Below are positions 3,117 to 10,299 of a stretch of 22,476 nt of DNA, one piece after another; the stretch's first letter is position 1, and each line of letters starts with the position of its first letter. The DNA is from a virus: positions 1 through 22,476 of IMG/VR virus record IMGVR_UViG_3300006175_000034. One strand, given 5' to 3'. The notes below the pieces were generated by a model. It was given only the letters and a program-made list of their open reading frames with translations. It was not told where the DNA came from and did no database searches. Position numbers and translations under genes: made by a program.

Positions 3117-3315
3117 GCCTGCTCCTCCTCCTTCGGGGCCAGACTCCGAGACGGTCGTTCTCCTCCTTGACGCTGTGCCACAGCGTGACCTGGCCCATGT
3201 TGAACAGGTCGCACTCCAGGTTGCGGCGCCGACGGCGGAACCGGTACTCGGCGAACTGGCCCGTGAGCCGCATGCCCGCCAGCGTCCGTATGAATCTGGC
3301 GTCAGACCGGCGCAT
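3109..3315 (-). CDS. Small very basic protein
   Basis: The protein has 68 residues and is strikingly rich in Arg, including FRRRRRN near residues 27-32 and WPRRRRSRRG at the C-terminus. The ATG at 3315 shares one base with the stop of the DinG-like helicase (TGATG), so it is almost certainly translationally coupled to it. The high positive charge fits nucleic-acid binding. It has one cysteine (LECDLF) and no recognisable domain. Because it directly follows the helicase it could be a cofactor, but this is inference. The longer frame starting at 3582 overlaps the helicase and is rejected. Confidence 0.65.
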   Translation of the reverse strand: MRRSDARFIRTLAGMRLTGQFAEYRFRRRRRNLECDLFNMGQVTLWHSVKEENDRLGVWPRRRRSRRG

Positions 3316-5261
3316 CAGTCCGCACCCCGCGCCGAGCGCAGCCCGGCGAAGAAGGCGGCGACCTCGTCCACCGACGACACCAGCGGGGCGGGGGGCAGGG
3401 CGCGGCGTACCGCCGACGCCCACCCGGCCCGCATGCGCGGGTCCAGGATGGCGACCGCTCCGGCGTCGTCGACCGACCGGATTAGGCGGCCGAACGCCTG
3501 GATCAGGACCAGCGACATCTCGGGGATGCTGACCCGGCGGAAGTCCGACCCCTTGCCGAACCGCTTGACCGTAAGGGCGCACCGGGCCTTGAACACCGGG
3601 TCGTCCGGGACGGGGAACGGCATCTTGTCGATCACGACCAGGCGGCAGGTGTCCCCGGCGAAGTCGACGCCCGTGAAGAAGCTGCGGGTGGCGAACAGGA
3701 CCGAGTCGGCGTGATCGGCGAACTGGCGGGCCAGCTCACGGTTGGGCGTACCGGCGCCCTGCAGGAATACCGGGAGCCCGTGCCTGCCCAGCCGGGGGCG
3801 CAGCGCGTCGTGCGCCTCGCGCATGGCCGAGGTGCTGGTGAACAGCAGCAGCGCGCCGCCGCCCGACACCAGGACCAGGTCGTACATCTGGTCCTGGGCC
3901 CATCCGCGCCAGTGCGGGTCCCTGGGCATCGGGGCGTCCGACGGGGGCAGCATCAGCCGGGCCTGCTTCGAGTAGTCGAAGGGCGTGCCGACATCCAGGC
4001 TGTCGTACTTGGACAGTCCGGCCCGGCGGGCCACGTAGGTCACGTCGCCGTTTATGCCCAGGGTGGCGCTGGTCAGGACGGTCGGCTTGCCCAGCTCCCA
4101 CACGGCCGCGTGCAGGAAGCCGCCGACCTCGACCGGGGCGATCTTCATCTCGACCCGGCCGCCGCGCCCTGCCTCCATCCACGTCACCCCCCCATGGTCC
4201 GTGTTCCGACTGAAGCCGGACATGTCCGCCGTCAGCCCGTCCACCCGGCGCGCGAACTCGCAGACGCGGTCGATCTCGCCGTCCTCGTCCGGCTCGGGGT
4301 CCTCGCACCGGCAGTCGGCGTCCTGGGCCGCCGTGTCGATCGTGCGCAGCAGGTCGGTCAGGCGGGCGGCCTCGGCCTGGTCGTCGACGTCCAGCTCGGC
4401 CGTGCGGGACTTGGGGTTGTCCTCGAAGAATCGCTGCAGGCGGCCGAACCAGGTGGCGGCCCGGTCGCGCAGCTCGTCGACCGCCTTCTGGGCTGCGTCC
4501 GGGTAGTGGCCCTCGATCCGGGAGCAGGTGTTCAGGATTCGTCCCAGGGTGACCGACACCGTCAGTCCGTCGGCGACGATGGAGGGCATCTCGTGGGCCT
4601 CGTCCACCACCAGGTAGTCGTACTCGCCCAGGATTCCGGCCGCGCCGTTGGTCATCGCGCGCAGACGCAGGTCCTGGGTCAATAGGCTGGTGTTCACGAC
4701 CAGGACCGTGGCGCGCAGAGCGCGGGACTTGGCCCGCTCCGAGTAGCACTCCCGGCCGAACGGGCAGCGCTTGCGCCCGATGCAGCCCTCGGCGTCGGTG
4801 GTCAGCTCGCGCCACTCGCGGTCGTCGACCGGCTGCACCAGGTCCTGCCGCTCGCCGTCGGTGCCCTCCTTGACGTAGGCGCCGCCGTTCTTGTCGGCCT
4901 CGCGCAGGCAGACGTAGTTGCTGCGCCCCTTCAGAACGGCGAAGGTCAGCTCGGGGAACAGCGTATCGCGCAGGGTCGGCAGGTCCTTGCCCGCGATCTG
5001 GTCCTGCAGCGCCTTGGTGCTGACGCTGACGACCACGCGCTTGCGGACGCGCAGGGCCTGCGCGATGATGGGGATCAGGTAGCCCAGGCTCTTGCCGACG
5101 CCGCAGCCTGCCTGCGCCAGCAGGACTCGGTGCTTGGCCTCGCCCCGGACGGTCAGCTGCACGGCCTCAGCCATCCGACGTTGCTGCGGACGCACGGAGA
5201 ACCCGGGCCACTGCTCGGTCAGGGCCGCTTCGGCCTCGTGCCAGCTCTGAATGGAAGTCAT
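3315..5261 (-). CDS. DinG/XPD-family superfamily 2 DNA helicase with probable Fe-S cluster
   Basis: This 648-residue protein should be an ATP-driven 5'-3' DNA helicase. Visible motifs are Walker A AGCGVGKS (residues 51-58), four cysteines at 118, 160, 166 and 172 (CIGRKRCPFGREC) placed as the Fe-S cluster of XPD/DinG helicases, the DEAH box (VVDEAHEM, 220-223), a TSATLG motif III-like segment, a FFTGVDFAGD stretch and a QAFGRLIRS motif VI near the end. Length fits the family. It is the first gene of the leftward early operon. The ATG at 5261 has no Shine-Dalgarno; instead a promoter -10 ends 6 nt before it, so the mRNA is probably leaderless. It probably serves phage replication or recombination with the primase and Sak4-like ATPase nearby. 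Confidence 0.93.
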   Translation of the reverse strand: MTSIQSWHEAEAALTEQWPGFSVRPQQRRMAEAVQLTVRGEAKHRVLLAQAGCGVGKSLGYLIPIIAQALRVRKRVVVSVSTKALQDQIAGKDLPTLRDTLFPELTFAVLKGRSNYVCLREADKNGGAYVKEGTDGERQDLVQPVDDREWRELTTDAEGCIGRKRCPFGRECYSERAKSRALRATVLVVNTSLLTQDLRLRAMTNGAAGILGEYDYLVVDEAHEMPSIVADGLTVSVTLGRILNTCSRIEGHYPDAAQKAVDELRDRAATWFGRLQRFFEDNPKSRTAELDVDDQAEAARLTDLLRTIDTAAQDADCRCEDPEPDEDGEIDRVCEFARRVDGLTADMSGFSRNTDHGGVTWMEAGRGGRVEMKIAPVEVGGFLHAAVWELGKPTVLTSATLGINGDVTYVARRAGLSKYDSLDVGTPFDYSKQARLMLPPSDAPMPRDPHWRGWAQDQMYDLVLVSGGGALLLFTSTSAMREAHDALRPRLGRHGLPVFLQGAGTPNRELARQFADHADSVLFATRSFFTGVDFAGDTCRLVVIDKMPFPVPDDPVFKARCALTVKRFGKGSDFRRVSIPEMSLVLIQAFGRLIRSVDDAGAVAILDPRMRAGWASAVRRALPPAPLVSSVDEVAAFFAGLRSARGAD

Positions 5262-5267
5262 AGGAGT

Positions 5268-5298
5268 AGTCTATCGTCCGATTTGTCAGGGTGTCAAG
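5268..5298 (-). promoter_or_regulatory. Promoter with embedded dyad (site S1) for the DinG-like helicase operon; leaderless
   Basis: On the minus strand, TTGACA (5292-5297) is followed after exactly 18 nt by TAGACT (5268-5273). Six nucleotides later comes the ATG of the helicase. The -35 is the first half of the dyad CTTGACACCCTGACAA (5283-5298), which recurs with small changes at three other operon heads. The initiation point expected 6-7 nt after the -10 falls on the ATG itself, and no Shine-Dalgarno is present. Confidence 0.75.
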
Positions 5299-5310: not shown

Positions 5311-5508
5311 TCAGATCTCGTCCGGCGGCGACAGCAGGCAGCGGTGCGTCTTGCTATCTACCTGCTTGGCCTGGAGGGCCACCTGGGCCAGAGTGGCGTG
5401 GGACAGTGCCCGGATAAGCAGAGCGGTCTCCCGGGACGTCCCGCGCACCAGCTCGCTCTCGGCTAGGTACCGCTCGGCGCGGTGGTAGTGGTGCCTCTCG
5501 TCTGCCAT
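5311..5508 (-). CDS. Small charged hypothetical protein
   Basis: This 65-residue protein starts at ATG 5508 (MADERHHYHRAERYLAESEL). A weak GGTGGA element lies upstream. A longer frame starting at 5580 exists, but its extra 24 residues are Cys/Trp-rich and unlike the rest. The protein is one or two amphipathic helices with an HHYHRAERYLAE start and a conserved-looking ATLAQVALQAKQVD helix. I recall small proteins of this composition being common in Streptomyces phages, without a known function. It stands alone between the candidate origin region and the helicase promoter. It could be a replication or antihost factor, but nothing in the sequence proves it. Confidence 0.65.
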   Translation of the reverse strand: MADERHHYHRAERYLAESELVRGTSRETALLIRALSHATLAQVALQAKQVDSKTHRCLLSPPDEI

Positions 5509-5547
5509 GGGCGCAGTCCACCATGCCCCTTGACCGGCCGTCCAGCG

Positions 5548-5672
5548 CCCACAACGGCACAACGCCTCCCGAGCAGACACCCCACATACACACGTAGCAC
5601 GGACGCGCGGACGCGGACGGACGCGTACACGTACGAGGGGCGTATTTCCCGGAGGCGTTGTGGCGTTGTGGG
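5548..5672. repeat. 22-bp inverted repeat (21/22) built of tandem CCACAACG units, 81-bp spacer
   Basis: The arms lie at 5548-5569 and 5651-5672 and match at 21 of 22 positions as an inverted repeat. Each arm holds two adjacent 8-bp units: CCACAACG and GCACAACG at 5549-5564, and CGTTGTGG twice at 5656-5671. Two further relatives, TGTTGTGA (5732-5739) and TGTTGTGG (5751-5758), lie to the right. This is an iteron-like arrangement in opposed orientation. Confidence 0.85.
5601..5625 (+). repeat. Three direct copies of GGACGCG
   Basis: GGACGCG occurs at 5601-5607, 5609-5615 and 5619-5625, inside the loop of the 22-bp inverted repeat, with a partial GGACG at 5615-5619. Spacing is 8 and 10 bp. It could be a second protein-binding array or simple slippage-derived repetition. 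Confidence 0.7.
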
Positions 5673-5713
5673 AGTACGGAAGCGCCGGTCATGGCATATA
5701 CGGACGACAACGG

Positions 5714-5754
5714 AACACATGTTGTTCTCTCTGTTGTGAGAGAGAGCATGTGTT
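5714..5754. repeat. Two-part hairpin with CT/AG-rich inner stem
   Basis: AACACATG (5714-5721) pairs with CATGTGTT (5747-5754). Inside, after a short asymmetric internal loop, TCTCTCT (5726-5732) pairs with AGAGAGA (5739-5745), leaving the loop GTTGTG. The total is 15 base pairs. No U-run follows on either strand, so it is not an obvious terminator. It may be a structured RNA or a cruciform element. Confidence 0.65.
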
Positions 5755-5849
5755 GTGGGGATTGAAAGACTGCAGCGGCAGTGGCTCTTCGTGATTGTTA
5801 CATCACTATCATAGTTACTGGATGTCACTGTGCGTGACTCCTCGTACAT

Positions 5850-5892
5850 ACAACACCGCCCCCCGGTCCTACAACAGGTGGGGGGCGGTTGT
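5850..5892 (-). terminator. Hairpin terminator downstream of the prim-pol gene
   Basis: CCGCCCCCC (5856-5864) pairs perfectly with GGGGGGCGG (5880-5888). Four more pairs (acaa at 5850-5853 with ttgt at 5889-5892) extend the stem past a 2-nt bulge. The loop is 15 nt. It lies immediately after the stop of the 5895-8405 gene on the minus strand and is followed by a T-containing but not uniform tail. Confidence 0.7.
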
Positions 5893-5894
5893 CG

Positions 5895-8405
5895 CTACAG
5901 GTCGTAGCCGGACGATGACACTACTCGCTGTGACCACTCGGGCGGTAGCTCCCAGTACCGGCGTCCCTCGGCCTTGCCCAGCAGGGACCTGCCGACCTCG
6001 CGCATCCGGCTGCCCTCGCATCCGATGGCCTTGAGTTCCTTGCGGATCGAGTCGGCCGTGCCGAGCTGCTGCTCGCGGTCGGTCAGGTTCTTGCGCTCGC
6101 GCCACAGGTCCGCCGTCTGCTCCACCGAGACCCACAGGGTGCGCCGGGTGCTGTCCCAGAACACCGGGGACCAGCCCTTGGCGCTGGTGGGCACCCCTCC
6201 GGAGCTAGCGGCGCGCAGCACCCACGGCAGGATCTCGCTCACCGCGAGGTTAGCCGCCCCCTCGTCGAACCTCTCGGAACACCACTTGTCGACCAGTGCG
6301 GCGTGGCCGATGTCTCCGGTGACCGCCTCCAGCACGCGAGCGCCCGTGCGCAGGATGCTGAGCTTGTCGGCGTGGCGCCCCCCGGTGTCCTTGAGGTCGG
6401 GCATCTGGGACAGGACGGGCGTGCCCGCGTCCAGGATCAGGGATACGACCGACCCGGCCAGGTCGGTCAGCCCGCCCACTCGGCCGCCGTATTTGGCGGT
6501 CAGGGCCACGATATCGTCCCACTGCAGACGGGACGGGTCGATCAGGCTGCGGCGGTCCCGGGGGGTGGAGAACTCCAGCCGGACCGCCCGGTCGCGCATC
6601 GCCTTCTCGGACATCATGGTGCCGCTGCCCTCGCCCGAGATCATGATCGGGCTGATCAGCTGCTGGTTGGTGGTGCCGACGTTGTCCGCGTCCTTCTTGC
6701 CCCGGCTGCCCTCGGAGGTGGCCTGCCGGACCACATCGGCTATCTGGGACACCTTGACGTCGGTCATGTCGTCCAGCCAGGCGATGCCGTTGCGGTGCGC
6801 GGCCACCGCGTCGCGGAAACTGGCCGGAGTGTGCTGCCCGGCGCCGTCCATCGACCCGGCCAGGGCGACCATCATGGCGAAGAATCCCGTGGTCTTGCCG
6901 GACTCGCTGCCCGCGTCCAGCATCATGAACGGGAACATCGAGCAGGGGTACCGGCCCTTGAGCAGGGCCATGGCCCACCAGGACCCGAACACGCTGGCCA
7001 CCGTCTCGTCCTGGAAGGTCAGCACCTCGCGCAGGATCTCGCGCGCCGTGCCGCGATCCGCCATCCCGTACCGGTACCGCACATGCCCGCGCAGATAGTC
7101 GGCCGGGACCAGCGCGCCATGCGGCTCTACGCCACCCCCTCCCAGGATGCCCTCCGGAATCACGAAACTGCCGTCGGCCTGGTGTCCGTAGTGGGGGGTC
7201 TGCTCAGCGGCCGGGGCGTCCTGGGACATCAGGTACCTAAGCAGCCGGGTGTTGGACGACACCTTGCACGAGTCGTTGGCCGGGGGAGCGATGCTGGCGT
7301 GGTGGGCGGTCAGCCAGACCGTGAGCCTGTAGATGTTGCCCAGGATGTCGGCCGGGAGCGGCTCGTTCTCGTAGATGGTGTGGCCGGTGACCAGGTCCAC
7401 GTAGAACGTGCGCTCGTCGTCGTCCTGCACGATCCGGCGGGCGCGCAGCTCGAAGTCGGACCACTCGGCCACCCGGACCAGGCCGTCCTCACCCTTGACG
7501 GTGGTGTACAGCCTGCCGTCCCGGGCGGCCAGGAATCCGCTGTCGGCCTCGAAGATCAGCCCGGCGCCGGAGTGCTGCTTGGCCCAGATGGAGTCGGCGA
7601 CCTTCAGGGCCTCGGCCTCGTCGAGAGGGTCGTCCAGGGTCGTGCCCAGGTGGCGCACCAGCGCGGTGTAGCCGTCCTGCATCGGCGCCGGGAACAGCTT
7701 GGCCAGGTGACCAGCCACCTGGGTCAGCCAGTTGTTGCGGCCGTCGCCCTCGGAGGACGGCGGGCTCTCGATCAGATTGCGCAGCAGGGATTTTACGTTG
7801 CTATTCTGACGCTTGTGTGCGCTGCTCGGCCTGCTGGCGTTGCTGGGCTTCAGTTCGACAACGTTTGAATCTTCAGTAGGCTTATCGGACCGGAGGGGGT
7901 GGCGCAGGCACTCCGGGGCGTCCAGCAGATCGCCCCCCGCCCACTCGTACCGGCGGCCGGTGGCGTGGACCGACGGCGGTATCACCACCCCCCCACCGTC
8001 CCCACGGAAGTCGTACCCCAGATCGTTGTCCGAATGCCCCGGCCACTCCCGCTCGTCCGTGTCGGGGATGCGGAAGTGCAGATGGACGCCGCGTCCGGTG
8101 GTGACCTTGAGCGCCCTGTCGTATAGATCTCCCAGCACCTCGCGCCAGCGCTGCTCGGCCTGGTCGCTGTCGATATCCAGGACCACCCGCCTGCTGATCT
8201 GGCCCGTGGCCAGCCACAGCCCCTTGGCCTCGTCGCCCTTGGCGAACGCCAGCCTGGGCCAGGGCTGCATGCGCTTGGCGACCCAGGTGCTGCGCCACTT
8301 GACACCGAGATCGCCCGGATTCTTTCCGCCCTCGGGCAACGGGAAGACGTACAGCCCCTCGGCCGCCAGTCTCTCCCATTCCCCCCGAACCGTGCCGTCG
8401 GACAA
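5895..8405 (-). CDS. Bifunctional primase-polymerase (prim-pol) fused to a P-loop ATPase
   Basis: This 836-residue protein should make primers and drive strand opening for phage replication. The N-terminal 160 residues look like an archaeo-eukaryotic-type prim-pol: LDIDSD (76-81) gives the metal-binding aspartates, GRGVHLHF (104-111) supplies the conserved histidines, and YDFRGDGGGVVIPPS follows. A polar, less GC-rich linker comes at about 175-215. Near residue 500 lies Walker A GSESGKTT, then IAWLDDM as Walker B and an Arg-rich segment (AMRDRAVRLEF), as in helicase-type ATPase domains. I place the start at TTG 8405, which has an AAGGAG Shine-Dalgarno about 8 nt upstream. No other good start lies nearby. 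It is a single-gene unit bounded by hairpins at 5850-5892 and 8472-8505. Confidence 0.9.
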   Translation of the reverse strand: MSDGTVRGEWERLAAEGLYVFPLPEGGKNPGDLGVKWRSTWVAKRMQPWPRLAFAKGDEAKGLWLATGQISRRVVLDIDSDQAEQRWREVLGDLYDRALKVTTGRGVHLHFRIPDTDEREWPGHSDNDLGYDFRGDGGGVVIPPSVHATGRRYEWAGGDLLDAPECLRHPLRSDKPTEDSNVVELKPSNASRPSSAHKRQNSNVKSLLRNLIESPPSSEGDGRNNWLTQVAGHLAKLFPAPMQDGYTALVRHLGTTLDDPLDEAEALKVADSIWAKQHSGAGLIFEADSGFLAARDGRLYTTVKGEDGLVRVAEWSDFELRARRIVQDDDERTFYVDLVTGHTIYENEPLPADILGNIYRLTVWLTAHHASIAPPANDSCKVSSNTRLLRYLMSQDAPAAEQTPHYGHQADGSFVIPEGILGGGGVEPHGALVPADYLRGHVRYRYGMADRGTAREILREVLTFQDETVASVFGSWWAMALLKGRYPCSMFPFMMLDAGSESGKTTGFFAMMVALAGSMDGAGQHTPASFRDAVAAHRNGIAWLDDMTDVKVSQIADVVRQATSEGSRGKKDADNVGTTNQQLISPIMISGEGSGTMMSEKAMRDRAVRLEFSTPRDRRSLIDPSRLQWDDIVALTAKYGGRVGGLTDLAGSVVSLILDAGTPVLSQMPDLKDTGGRHADKLSILRTGARVLEAVTGDIGHAALVDKWCSERFDEGAANLAVSEILPWVLRAASSGGVPTSAKGWSPVFWDSTRRTLWVSVEQTADLWRERKNLTDREQQLGTADSIRKELKAIGCEGSRMREVGRSLLGKAEGRRYWELPPEWSQRVVSSSGYDL

Positions 8406-8533: not shown

Positions 8534-9001
8534 CTAGAACAGCGGCACATCCTCCGGCTTGGTCTTGGCACCGCCACCGGCCGTCGCGGGAGCAGCGCCC
8601 TCAGGGGCGCCGTCCTCGGGCGGGAGCACCTGCTTGATGTCGTTGCCCATGTCGCCCTTGCGTACGCCGCCCTGGATGATGCGCTGCACGATGTAGAGGC
8701 GCACCGGCTTGCCGATCAGCTCGTCGGTGTCGGTGTCGGCCGGGACGCCGAACGCCTTGAAGACCTCGTTCAGGCGCCAGCGGGCCGCCTCGGACAGGGA
8801 GGTGTTCAGGAACATCTTGCGGGAGGTAAACCCCTCGTCGGTGAGCTTGAACACCCACCGCCAGTAGATGCCGTTGGCGCCGTCCTTGACCTCGACCTCG
8901 CCCTCCAGGACGGCGCGGTAGATGCCCTCGTCGATGGCCTCGAAATCCTGGCCCTCCGCCTTCTCGACCTCGGCCGCCACGTCGGCGCTGAGCTTCGGCA
9001 T
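8534..9001 (-). CDS. DUF669-like predicted single-stranded-DNA-binding protein
   Basis: This 155-residue protein resembles the DUF669 family, small beta-rich phage proteins usually found beside a Sak4-type ATPase and thought to coat single-stranded DNA. Family-like features are the beta segment YRAVLEGEVEVKDG, the WRWVFKLTDEG strand pair, the SRKMFLNTSL segment, a helix with LNEVFKAFGVPAD and ELIGKPVRLYIV. The C-terminus is a flexible Gly/Ala/Pro tail ending EDVPLF, like the acidic-hydrophobic tip by which bacterial SSBs recruit partners. The start at ATG 9001 has AAGGA 7 nt upstream. It follows the Sak4-like gene by 69 nt, consistent with an ATPase-SSB pair in homologous recombination. Confidence 0.85.
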   Translation of the reverse strand: MPKLSADVAAEVEKAEGQDFEAIDEGIYRAVLEGEVEVKDGANGIYWRWVFKLTDEGFTSRKMFLNTSLSEAARWRLNEVFKAFGVPADTDTDELIGKPVRLYIVQRIIQGGVRKGDMGNDIKQVLPPEDGAPEGAAPATAGGGAKTKPEDVPLF

Positions 9002-9070: not shown

Positions 9071-9985
9071 CTACTTGCTGTCCGCCGGGGGGGCGGACTC
9101 GGCCGGGCTGGTCTTCGCCCGTACCCGGTCCAGGTAGTCCTGCTGCGCAGGGTCGTCGTCCAGGGGCCAGTCTTGGAACACCAGGGCGACGAGCCGGTCG
9201 AACGAGGGGTCGGCCAGCACGGACGGCGTGCCGCCCAGCCGGTCCTTGCCCTTGTACTTGCCCGTATCGCGGAACACCCCCAGGTATCCGCTGGCGTCCT
9301 CGACGCCGGGGACCTTGCTGGTGTACGCGATCAGGTCGACGTACCCCATCAGATTAACGCCGAACTTGGGGGACAGCTGCGGCAGCATGACCAGGCCGGT
9401 GCCGGACTCCTTGTCCACCTCCCGCTTGGCCAGGCAGACAAACGCCGTGTGGCAGGGCAGGTCCCGGAATCGGCGCGCGATGACGCGCAGCTTCTCGGTC
9501 ACCACGCCGTGCTCACGTACGTCGACGTCGAATTCGGAATCCTCCACCTCCATCAGCAGGACGCCGTTCTTGTCGGTGGCCTTGCGCACTGCCTTAGCGT
9601 GACGAACGTCGACCTCCTCGCGCAGCAGCATCTGGTGTAGCTCGGTCATCGAGTCGAAGATGACACCGGCCACCGAGTCGGGGTCGTCGTCCAGCTCAGC
9701 CTTGATCCGCCAGTAGAAGGCGTCCAGCTGGGAGTAGGTGGTGATCGGCTTGCCCCGGTCGTCCCGGGCCGGGATGATGTTCTCGACCGGGATGCCCAGA
9801 CGGCGCAGCGGCCGGGCCTTGGCGCCGGACTCCGTGTCCACCAGGTACACCCGGCCCAGGCGGGCCATCCCGGCGGCGGCGGAGGTCTTGCCGGATCCGG
9901 GCTCACCGTAGTACAGCACGTTGGCGAACTCGGGCATGTCGTCCAGTGTGGCCTGCGGCCGAGGTGGTGCGACGGTTTCAGTCAT
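9071..9985 (-). CDS. Sak4-like RecA-fold ATPase (single-strand annealing or recombinase type)
   Basis: This 304-residue protein carries Walker A GEPGSGKT at residues 27-34 and a Walker B aspartate at 111 (GVIFDSM), with a short N-terminal extension. In Sak4-type phage proteins, a shortened RecA core promotes DNA annealing together with the phage SSB. Here the DUF669-like gene lies directly downstream. A late ELIGKP-like partner region is absent, and the C-terminus is a Pro/Ser/Ala tail. I cannot see a full RecA-type L1/L2 region, so Sak4-like is preferred to true RecA. The gene may be driven by the promoter at 10064-10094, with a hairpin in the leader. The Shine-Dalgarno is weak (GAGA). Confidence 0.85.
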   Translation of the reverse strand: MTETVAPPRPQATLDDMPEFANVLYYGEPGSGKTSAAAGMARLGRVYLVDTESGAKARPLRRLGIPVENIIPARDDRGKPITTYSQLDAFYWRIKAELDDDPDSVAGVIFDSMTELHQMLLREEVDVRHAKAVRKATDKNGVLLMEVEDSEFDVDVREHGVVTEKLRVIARRFRDLPCHTAFVCLAKREVDKESGTGLVMLPQLSPKFGVNLMGYVDLIAYTSKVPGVEDASGYLGVFRDTGKYKGKDRLGGTPSVLADPSFDRLVALVFQDWPLDDDPAQQDYLDRVRAKTSPAESAPPADSK

Positions 9986-10023
9986 TGATTCTCATCTCTG
10001 ATCCTGCCCGATCGGCGGAGCCA

Positions 10024-10052
10024 GCGGCGGGGGCTCGGGCCGCCCCCGCCGC
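10024..10052 (-). terminator. Perfect 11-bp GC hairpin between small gene and Sak4-like gene
   Basis: GCGGCGGGGGC (10024-10034) pairs exactly with GCCCCCGCCGC (10042-10052) around a 7-nt loop. It follows the stop at 10102 and precedes the Sak4-like gene. It could terminate the upstream operon. However, the promoter at 10064-10094 would start transcription just before it, so it may instead sit in the Sak4 leader as an attenuator or stabilising stem. Confidence 0.6.
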
Positions 10053-10063
10053 CGTACGATCGT

Positions 10064-10094
10064 ATCCCACCATACCGGTTGTCCGGCAGACAAT
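10064..10094 (-). promoter_or_regulatory. Dyad site S4 with candidate promoter for the Sak4-like gene
   Basis: On the minus strand, ATTGTCTGCCGGACAA (10079-10094) matches the shared dyad at 13 of 16 positions and has near-symmetric half-sites TTGTCT and GGACAA. TTGTCT (10088-10093) as -35 lies 18 nt from TGGGAT (10064-10069) as a weak -10. This is the least convincing promoter of the four, but the spacing is identical. Confidence 0.45.
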
Positions 10095-10101
10095 CCCCGG
10101 G

Positions 10102-10299
10102 TTACCAGTCCCGCTGGGCCTCCCGTACCTCCTCCACGAACATGGCCAGGGCGTCCCGGATCTGCTTAACCGCGCCCGCCAAGGCCTGTATCCGGGAATC
10201 CCCGCCCGCATCCACGGAGTTGATCAGGCGGTCCGCCTCATCGAGGTAGTCCGATACCCCCTCCCCGGTGACGTAGTGCTTGAACACCTGTTCGGACAT
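10102..10299 (-). CDS. Small hypothetical protein after the nuclease
   Basis: This 65-residue protein starts at ATG 10299, one base past the stop of the Cas4-like nuclease, with an AGAGG Shine-Dalgarno. It begins MSEQVFKHYVTGEGVSDYLD and continues as a likely helix-loop-helix with an AGAVKQIRDALAMFVEEVRE segment. It is acidic and may dimerise through that helix. I do not recognise a family. Its position suggests an accessory to the nuclease or Sak4-like ATPase. The longer frame from 10452 overlaps the nuclease gene in another phase and is rejected. Confidence 0.7.
   Translation of the reverse strand: MSEQVFKHYVTGEGVSDYLDEADRLINSVDAGGDSRIQALAGAVKQIRDALAMFVEEVREAQRDW

Follow-up and report, generated by a model that had tools for sequence, protein, structure and literature searches.

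A non-coding gap of about 385 bp, extending from the stop of a PrimPol-helicase gene to the start of a small ORF, is likely to be a phage replication origin at which the PrimPol-helicase, the product of the gene immediately upstream, would act. We infer origin activity from the sequence anatomy of the gap, the recurrence of such gaps 3′ of the corresponding genes, the structural kinship of the protein and the tracking of residues within one genus. The gap is located in a stretch of viral DNA of 22,476 nucleotides (IMG/VR record IMGVR_UViG_3300006175_000034), which is called the window in the following. An initial annotation of this DNA had already proposed an origin here. Sequence comparison supports the proposal by the conserved architecture of the gap and by the initiator-like adjacent protein, since known similar initiators have their origins immediately 3′ of the gene. 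The elements of the gap and the neighbouring genes are:

3315–5261, minus strand: Helicase_C_2 (DinG-like) DNA helicase, downstream
5311–5508, minus strand: small ORF, function unassigned, between candidate origin and helicase (phrog_16141, E 1.2e-5)
5509–5894, no strand: non-coding gap, candidate replication origin, without supported ORF; homologous loci have a repeat-rich gap in the corresponding place
5548–5672, no strand: 125-bp inverted repeat with the two doublets in the base of the stem, candidate for a stem-loop of the pRN1 kind (42-nt arms 79% complementary; fold z −7.4)
5548–5566, minus strand: iteron doublet 1, ACAACG twice with 8-bp spacing, CCCACAACG/GCACAACG, the sole such ACAAC doublet in the window
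5583–5635, no strand: alternating purine-pyrimidine tract including the GGACGCG copies, the strongest in the window, with no equal among 213 other scan windows
5656–5672, plus strand: iteron doublet 2, CGTTGTGG CGTTGTGGG, 8 bp apart, inverted relative to doublet 1
5704–5853, no strand: the 150 bp with the highest A+T content in the window (53.3%), candidate unwinding element
5707–5756: four single iteron cores at 5707 (minus), 5721 (plus), 5733 (plus) and 5752 (plus)
5714–5754, no strand: hairpin whose arms and loop contain copies of GTTGT (17 pairs, one bulge; z −5.5)
5850–5892: three iteron cores around and inside the terminator-like hairpin, at 5850 (minus), 5871 (minus) and 5888 (plus)
5855–5889, minus strand: terminator-like hairpin of the PrimPol-helicase gene (10-bp perfect arms; z −3.8; weak T tail)
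5895–8405, minus strand: PrimPol fused to a Cch/SaPI-Rep-like helicase with winged-helix-like C-terminus, proposed initiator (Pfam Prim-Pol, PriCT_1; AlphaFold pLDDT 86.9)
8534–9001, minus strand: 155-aa protein, function unassigned, upstream of the primase (phrog_2300; syntenic in relatives)
9071–9985, minus strand: Sak4/RecA-like annealing protein (phrog_124, AAA_24)

As stated in the initial annotation, no gene explains the gap, in which no ORF has a protein-family match (one reached E = 0.2). GTTGT/ACAAC occurs 11 times, a number that none of 2000 dinucleotide shuffles reached (shuffle mean 1.2), and the four copies of CGTTGTG were also matched by none of 2000 shuffles. The density of GTTGTG is 49 times that in the rest of the window. 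When the most repeated 5-mer was chosen freely, 4 of 2000 shuffles equalled the gap, and the enrichment is therefore clear rather than extreme; by its best k-mer score the gap ranks third, not first, among 423 contig windows. It is the arrangement that makes the gap distinctive. The two doublets, which belong to the 11 copies and confirm the previously noted inverted array of 8-bp iterons, are the only doublets with 8-bp spacing in the window and face each other across about 100 bp. Between them lies the alternating purine-pyrimidine tract, whose strength was equalled in 28 of 2000 within-gap shuffles and which contains the GGACGCG array seen before as three copies (5601, 5609, 5619). Doublets, spacer and arms together form one single 125-nt inverted repeat (z −7.4, RNA parameters), which had escaped the initial annotation.

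Further elements named there were found with corrections. The hairpin at 5714–5754 is real, its 15 pairs becoming 17 with one bulge, and the palindrome ACTATCATAGT is present at 5805–5815, in a stretch that folds at chance level (z −0.1). The claimed terminator consists of the perfect-armed hairpin at 5855–5889 without a clean T run and was not called by the pattern scan. The most AT-rich segment, given before as about 5700–5850, is indeed located at 5704–5853 and adjoins the core of doublets and tract. DnaA boxes (TTRTCCACA), expected for a DnaA-dependent origin, are absent from the gap; the window holds one box with one mismatch, which is below the chance number. GC skew, suggested earlier as an origin mark, counts against the origin: neither in the window nor in four complete genomes did it show a clear switch at the gap.

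For 79 homologous loci the repeats in the 400 bp 3′ of the gene were ranked against all stretches of the same locus. Three loci (L051, L053, L059), in which the matches are regular repeats spaced by 18 bp, were left out of the ranking. These 400 bp were the most repeat-rich stretch in 50 of the 79 loci, with about 0.4 expected, and first-ranking members were present in 40 of 67 clusters at 95% identity and 29 of 49 at 80% identity. About one third of the loci did not rank first; among these L037 and L042 show the layout by eye, but L022, L023 and L055 do not. The repeats in the homologous gaps occur in both orientations and are lineage-specific, many of them being close to TGTNNC: GTTACCCC in Hiyaavirus, and TGTTCTA, TGTTCCA, GTCATA, TGCTAGA, AAGATACA and others elsewhere. 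In four complete genomes the iteron density in the gap was 67 to 326 times that elsewhere, and only second arrays were comparable. Relatives with the same flanking genes thus keep the repeats in the same place and arrangement with a different sequence in each lineage; the architecture is conserved, the letters are not. Of 55 repeat-rich loci, 24 had an alternating tract within the top 5% of the locus, against about 3 expected. Hiyaavirus ori1 lacks the tract and Korravirus has a weak one, so that it is common rather than universal. Stem-loop strength in 130-nt windows separated repeat-rich gaps (median z −2.9) only slightly from other gaps (−2.3), and with this weak trend in relatives it was rejected as a general origin mark. 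A genome scan for chromosomal relatives gave five matches. As a side observation, tRNA-like halves in permuted order were seen in four loci (L008 9189–9340, L009 6150–6400, L010 9080–9320, L037 from 8768): T-arm and 3′ acceptor strand are followed after 4–8 nt by 5′ acceptor strand and D-arm, with 7 of 7 acceptor pairs in six of seven cases. Rotated models were called tRNA by ARAGORN and none was in direct order, except L009 6357; anticodons are not fixed by this test.

All five Hiyaavirus records carry a second array; where the distance between the arrays was measured, in two records, it is about half a genome. In Keanu (78696–79035) it has the same order, orientation and spacing as the first array, with 72% identity over 354 aligned columns, and the arrays are 42.1 kb apart in a genome of 82.1 kb; in Hiyaa (79844–80180) the distance is 43 kb in 83.2 kb. 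The second array of Bogota (9848–10113) is inverted. In Keanu and Bogota core and iteron order are duplicated without the terminator, and the second arrays are therefore not gene ends. Phage P4 has a second repeat region, crr, which may be comparable to these arrays. No second array was found in the window or in an overlapping 34.7-kb contig, both of which are fragments, nor in the 77-kb record L035. In Jera (PP405127.1) two iterons, at 31021 and 31033, lie just upstream of the primase gene and are possibly autoregulatory.

The gap is embedded in a conserved series of genes, all on the minus strand: Cas4-like exonuclease, Sak4/RecA-like protein, 155-aa protein, PrimPol-helicase, gap, small ORF and DinG-like helicase. 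That the 155-aa protein (8534–9001) is SSB-like is a guess. This gene order is common to phages of Streptomyces, Arthrobacter and Microbacterium, often with DNA polymerase I further on, and their gaps measure about 325 to 610 bp. No gap was found at the locus of Gordonia phage Ghobes, and the 152-bp gap of Curtobacterium phage Parvaparticeps is without repeats. A sigma-70-like promoter (TTGACA-18-TAGACT) is located at 5268–5297 of the window on the minus strand, directly upstream of the DinG-like helicase gene. The N-terminal part of the PrimPol-helicase is a PrimPol of the pRN1 ORF904 type (Pfam PF09250, E 4e-20; Z 12.0 to 1rni). Its AlphaFold model matches SCCmec Cch (5dgk_A) with Z 20.3 over residues 283–836 and SaPIBov1 Rep (8tch_A) with Z 17.8, and a Foldseek match (E 5.8e-12) supports the same fold. 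In its predicted structure the helicase part has the fold of the self-loading helicases Cch and SaPI Rep. The C-terminal domain has the predicted topology H-H-H-strand-strand-H; folded alone it reached pLDDT 68.5 and gave no significant structural match.

Between lineages the iteron sequence changes, apparently in step with its presumed reader protein. In 15 loci of Korravirus (Arthrobacter phages) the core copies switch jointly between TGTTAC and TGTAAC within conserved spacers; outlying copies are mixed in some loci. Among seven neighbouring proteins, columns separating the two groups were found only in the primase, at positions 775 and 848 (DreamTeam numbering). Both are in or just before the C-terminal domain and outside PrimPol, and the alignment puts residue 848 immediately behind helix 3 of this predicted domain. 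On the Korravirus tree the iteron type changes four times and residue 848 follows in 4 of 4, these being four pairs only, with which a sign test is unable to reach 0.05. Of 702 labellings with four changes, 0.28% gave two tracking columns in the primase C-terminus and 1.6% at least one. Because the gap adjoins the C-terminal codons, linked exchange could contribute to the tracking, though adjacent variable columns fail to track. For Hiyaavirus the relation between the first base of the iteron and C-terminal residues is suggestive (L with T, T with C); L036 and L039 fit poorly. Across 47 lineages iteron similarity gave a partial r of 0.08 with the C-terminal domain (62 of 1000 permutations) and of 0.19 with the PrimPol part (0 of 1000). 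The C-terminal domain was thus not singled out as a specific lineage-wide predictor of the iterons in this domain-by-domain correlation, PrimPol being better. Since Korravirus hints at the C-terminus and the lineage-wide test at the PrimPol part, a reader can only be proposed: the C-terminal domain is our leading version, and priming at the iterons the main alternative.

In the mechanism that we propose, the winged-helix-like C-terminal domain would bind the GTTGTG iterons, and the doublets, inverted and separated by about 100 bp, could seed two helicase assemblies facing each other, for bidirectional replication. The helicase would then melt the AT-rich stretch, with assistance from the hairpin and from the alternating tract, which may take up supercoiling. 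The PrimPol domain would prime on the exposed strands, possibly at GTG or GTGG inside the iterons, and DNA polymerase would extend the primers.

The main alternative keeps the origin but assigns the iterons to the PrimPol domain, which would use them in single-stranded form as priming sites, instead of to a C-terminal domain that binds them as duplex. Priming is known at GTGG/GTGA and TTTGGTTA for NrS-1 polymerase and at GTG for pRN1 ORF904 (PMC8718748), the iteron of the window contains GTGG, and PrimPol similarity is the best predictor of iteron similarity across lineages. Nevertheless, we regard this reading as rather unlikely: the tracking residues of Korravirus are outside PrimPol, in or just before the C-terminal domain, and doublets and inversions suggest duplex binding, although both roles may coexist. 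Less probable still are operators, bound by a repressor or by the initiator itself for control of transcription. Iteron Rep proteins often autoregulate, and the two iterons upstream of the Jera primase gene and the promoter-like match at 5268–5297 would fit such a role. The arrays, however, are located 3′ of the gene, the sole promoter-like match is outside the gap, the iterons are confined to one or two arrays rather than scattered, and AT-rich core and large inverted repeat are more than an operator needs.

Two further explanations appear highly improbable. An ordinary transcription terminator with chance repeats in a non-coding spacer would account for the terminator-like hairpin after the gene; as a full account it is refuted by the ranking of the loci (50 of 79 against 0.4 expected), by second arrays without terminator and by the concerted switching of iteron copies. 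A packaging or recombination site (pac/cos, resolution site) is conceivable in so far as repeats and hairpins are also among the features used by terminases and recombinases, but no terminase gene is next to the gap, and position and repeat type track the primase gene.

If the gap is an origin served by the PrimPol-helicase, an origin location would be suggested for 100-odd actinobacteriophage records with this protein, by the simple rule of a lineage-specific repeat 3′ of the PrimPol-helicase gene. The protein is matched by 147 records (duplicates included), and those inspected annotate no feature at the gap. The naturally switched pairs of iteron and initiator offer a way to study how an initiator changes specificity, and phage PrimPol-helicases would be linked to the origins of staphylococcal islands and archaeal plasmids. 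More tentatively, and less likely than not in our view, these origins may form a widespread undescribed phage family in which PrimPol-helicase and iterons change specificity together. Its fixed layout would be inverted iteron doublets on either side of an alternating tract, next to an AT-rich core. Some phages would have another copy at a distance of about half a genome, and the layout would also occur in phages with an unrelated primase type. The literature searched, with most subscription journals outside its scope, held no paper on these actinophage origins.

The known systems nearest to the window differ from it in part. SaPI origins have iterons directly downstream of rep that are recognised by the C-terminal domain of Rep, and the direct repeats to which Cch2 binds, likewise by its C-terminal domain, follow the cch2 gene and are where its partner primase starts (PMC7581432). 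SaPI Rep/ori and SCCmec Cch/Cch2 thus resemble the window in helicase fold, multiple short repeats and, if the gap is an origin, its place directly downstream of the gene. In contrast to them, helicase and PrimPol are fused in the actinophage replication module of the window, the doublets flank an alternating tract, and the repeats are lineage-specific. The 166 bp 3′ of orf904 that the minimal replicon of pRN1 requires include a terminator and a stem-loop of 100 nt (PMC4234260; 232 bp in PMC3869888), and the same arrangement was proposed by the pRN1 authors for Bordetella phage BIP-1 (PMC4234260, PMC3869888). Both have a PrimPol-helicase, as the window does, with a winged-helix C-terminus that is tentatively predicted for the window, and an origin 3′ of it with terminator and long stem-loop, for which the terminator-like hairpin at 5855–5889 and the 125-nt inverted repeat are the counterparts here. 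However, pRN1 is reportedly without iterons, whereas the stem of the window carries iteron doublets, and the helicase of the window best matches another subfamily. That ORF904 showed no specific origin binding in vitro (PMC4234260) counts against the mechanism proposed here. In phage P4 a single polypeptide, the alpha protein, contains a primase, a helicase and a winged helix and binds origin repeats (summarised in PMC4234260), but its primase is of the Toprim type. In two IMG/VR phages (L183, 5270–5540; L189, 4490–4770) a non-coding gap follows the helicase gene on its 3′ side and, like the gap of the window, has GTTGTGG doublets that face each other across an alternating tract. These phages differ in having a Toprim-type primase and a separate helicase, for which no Pfam relation is detectable, and the likeness may reflect either homology or convergence. 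Judged from its sequence, the gap in the window unites the stem-loop of pRN1 and the iterons of SaPI/SCC in one element.
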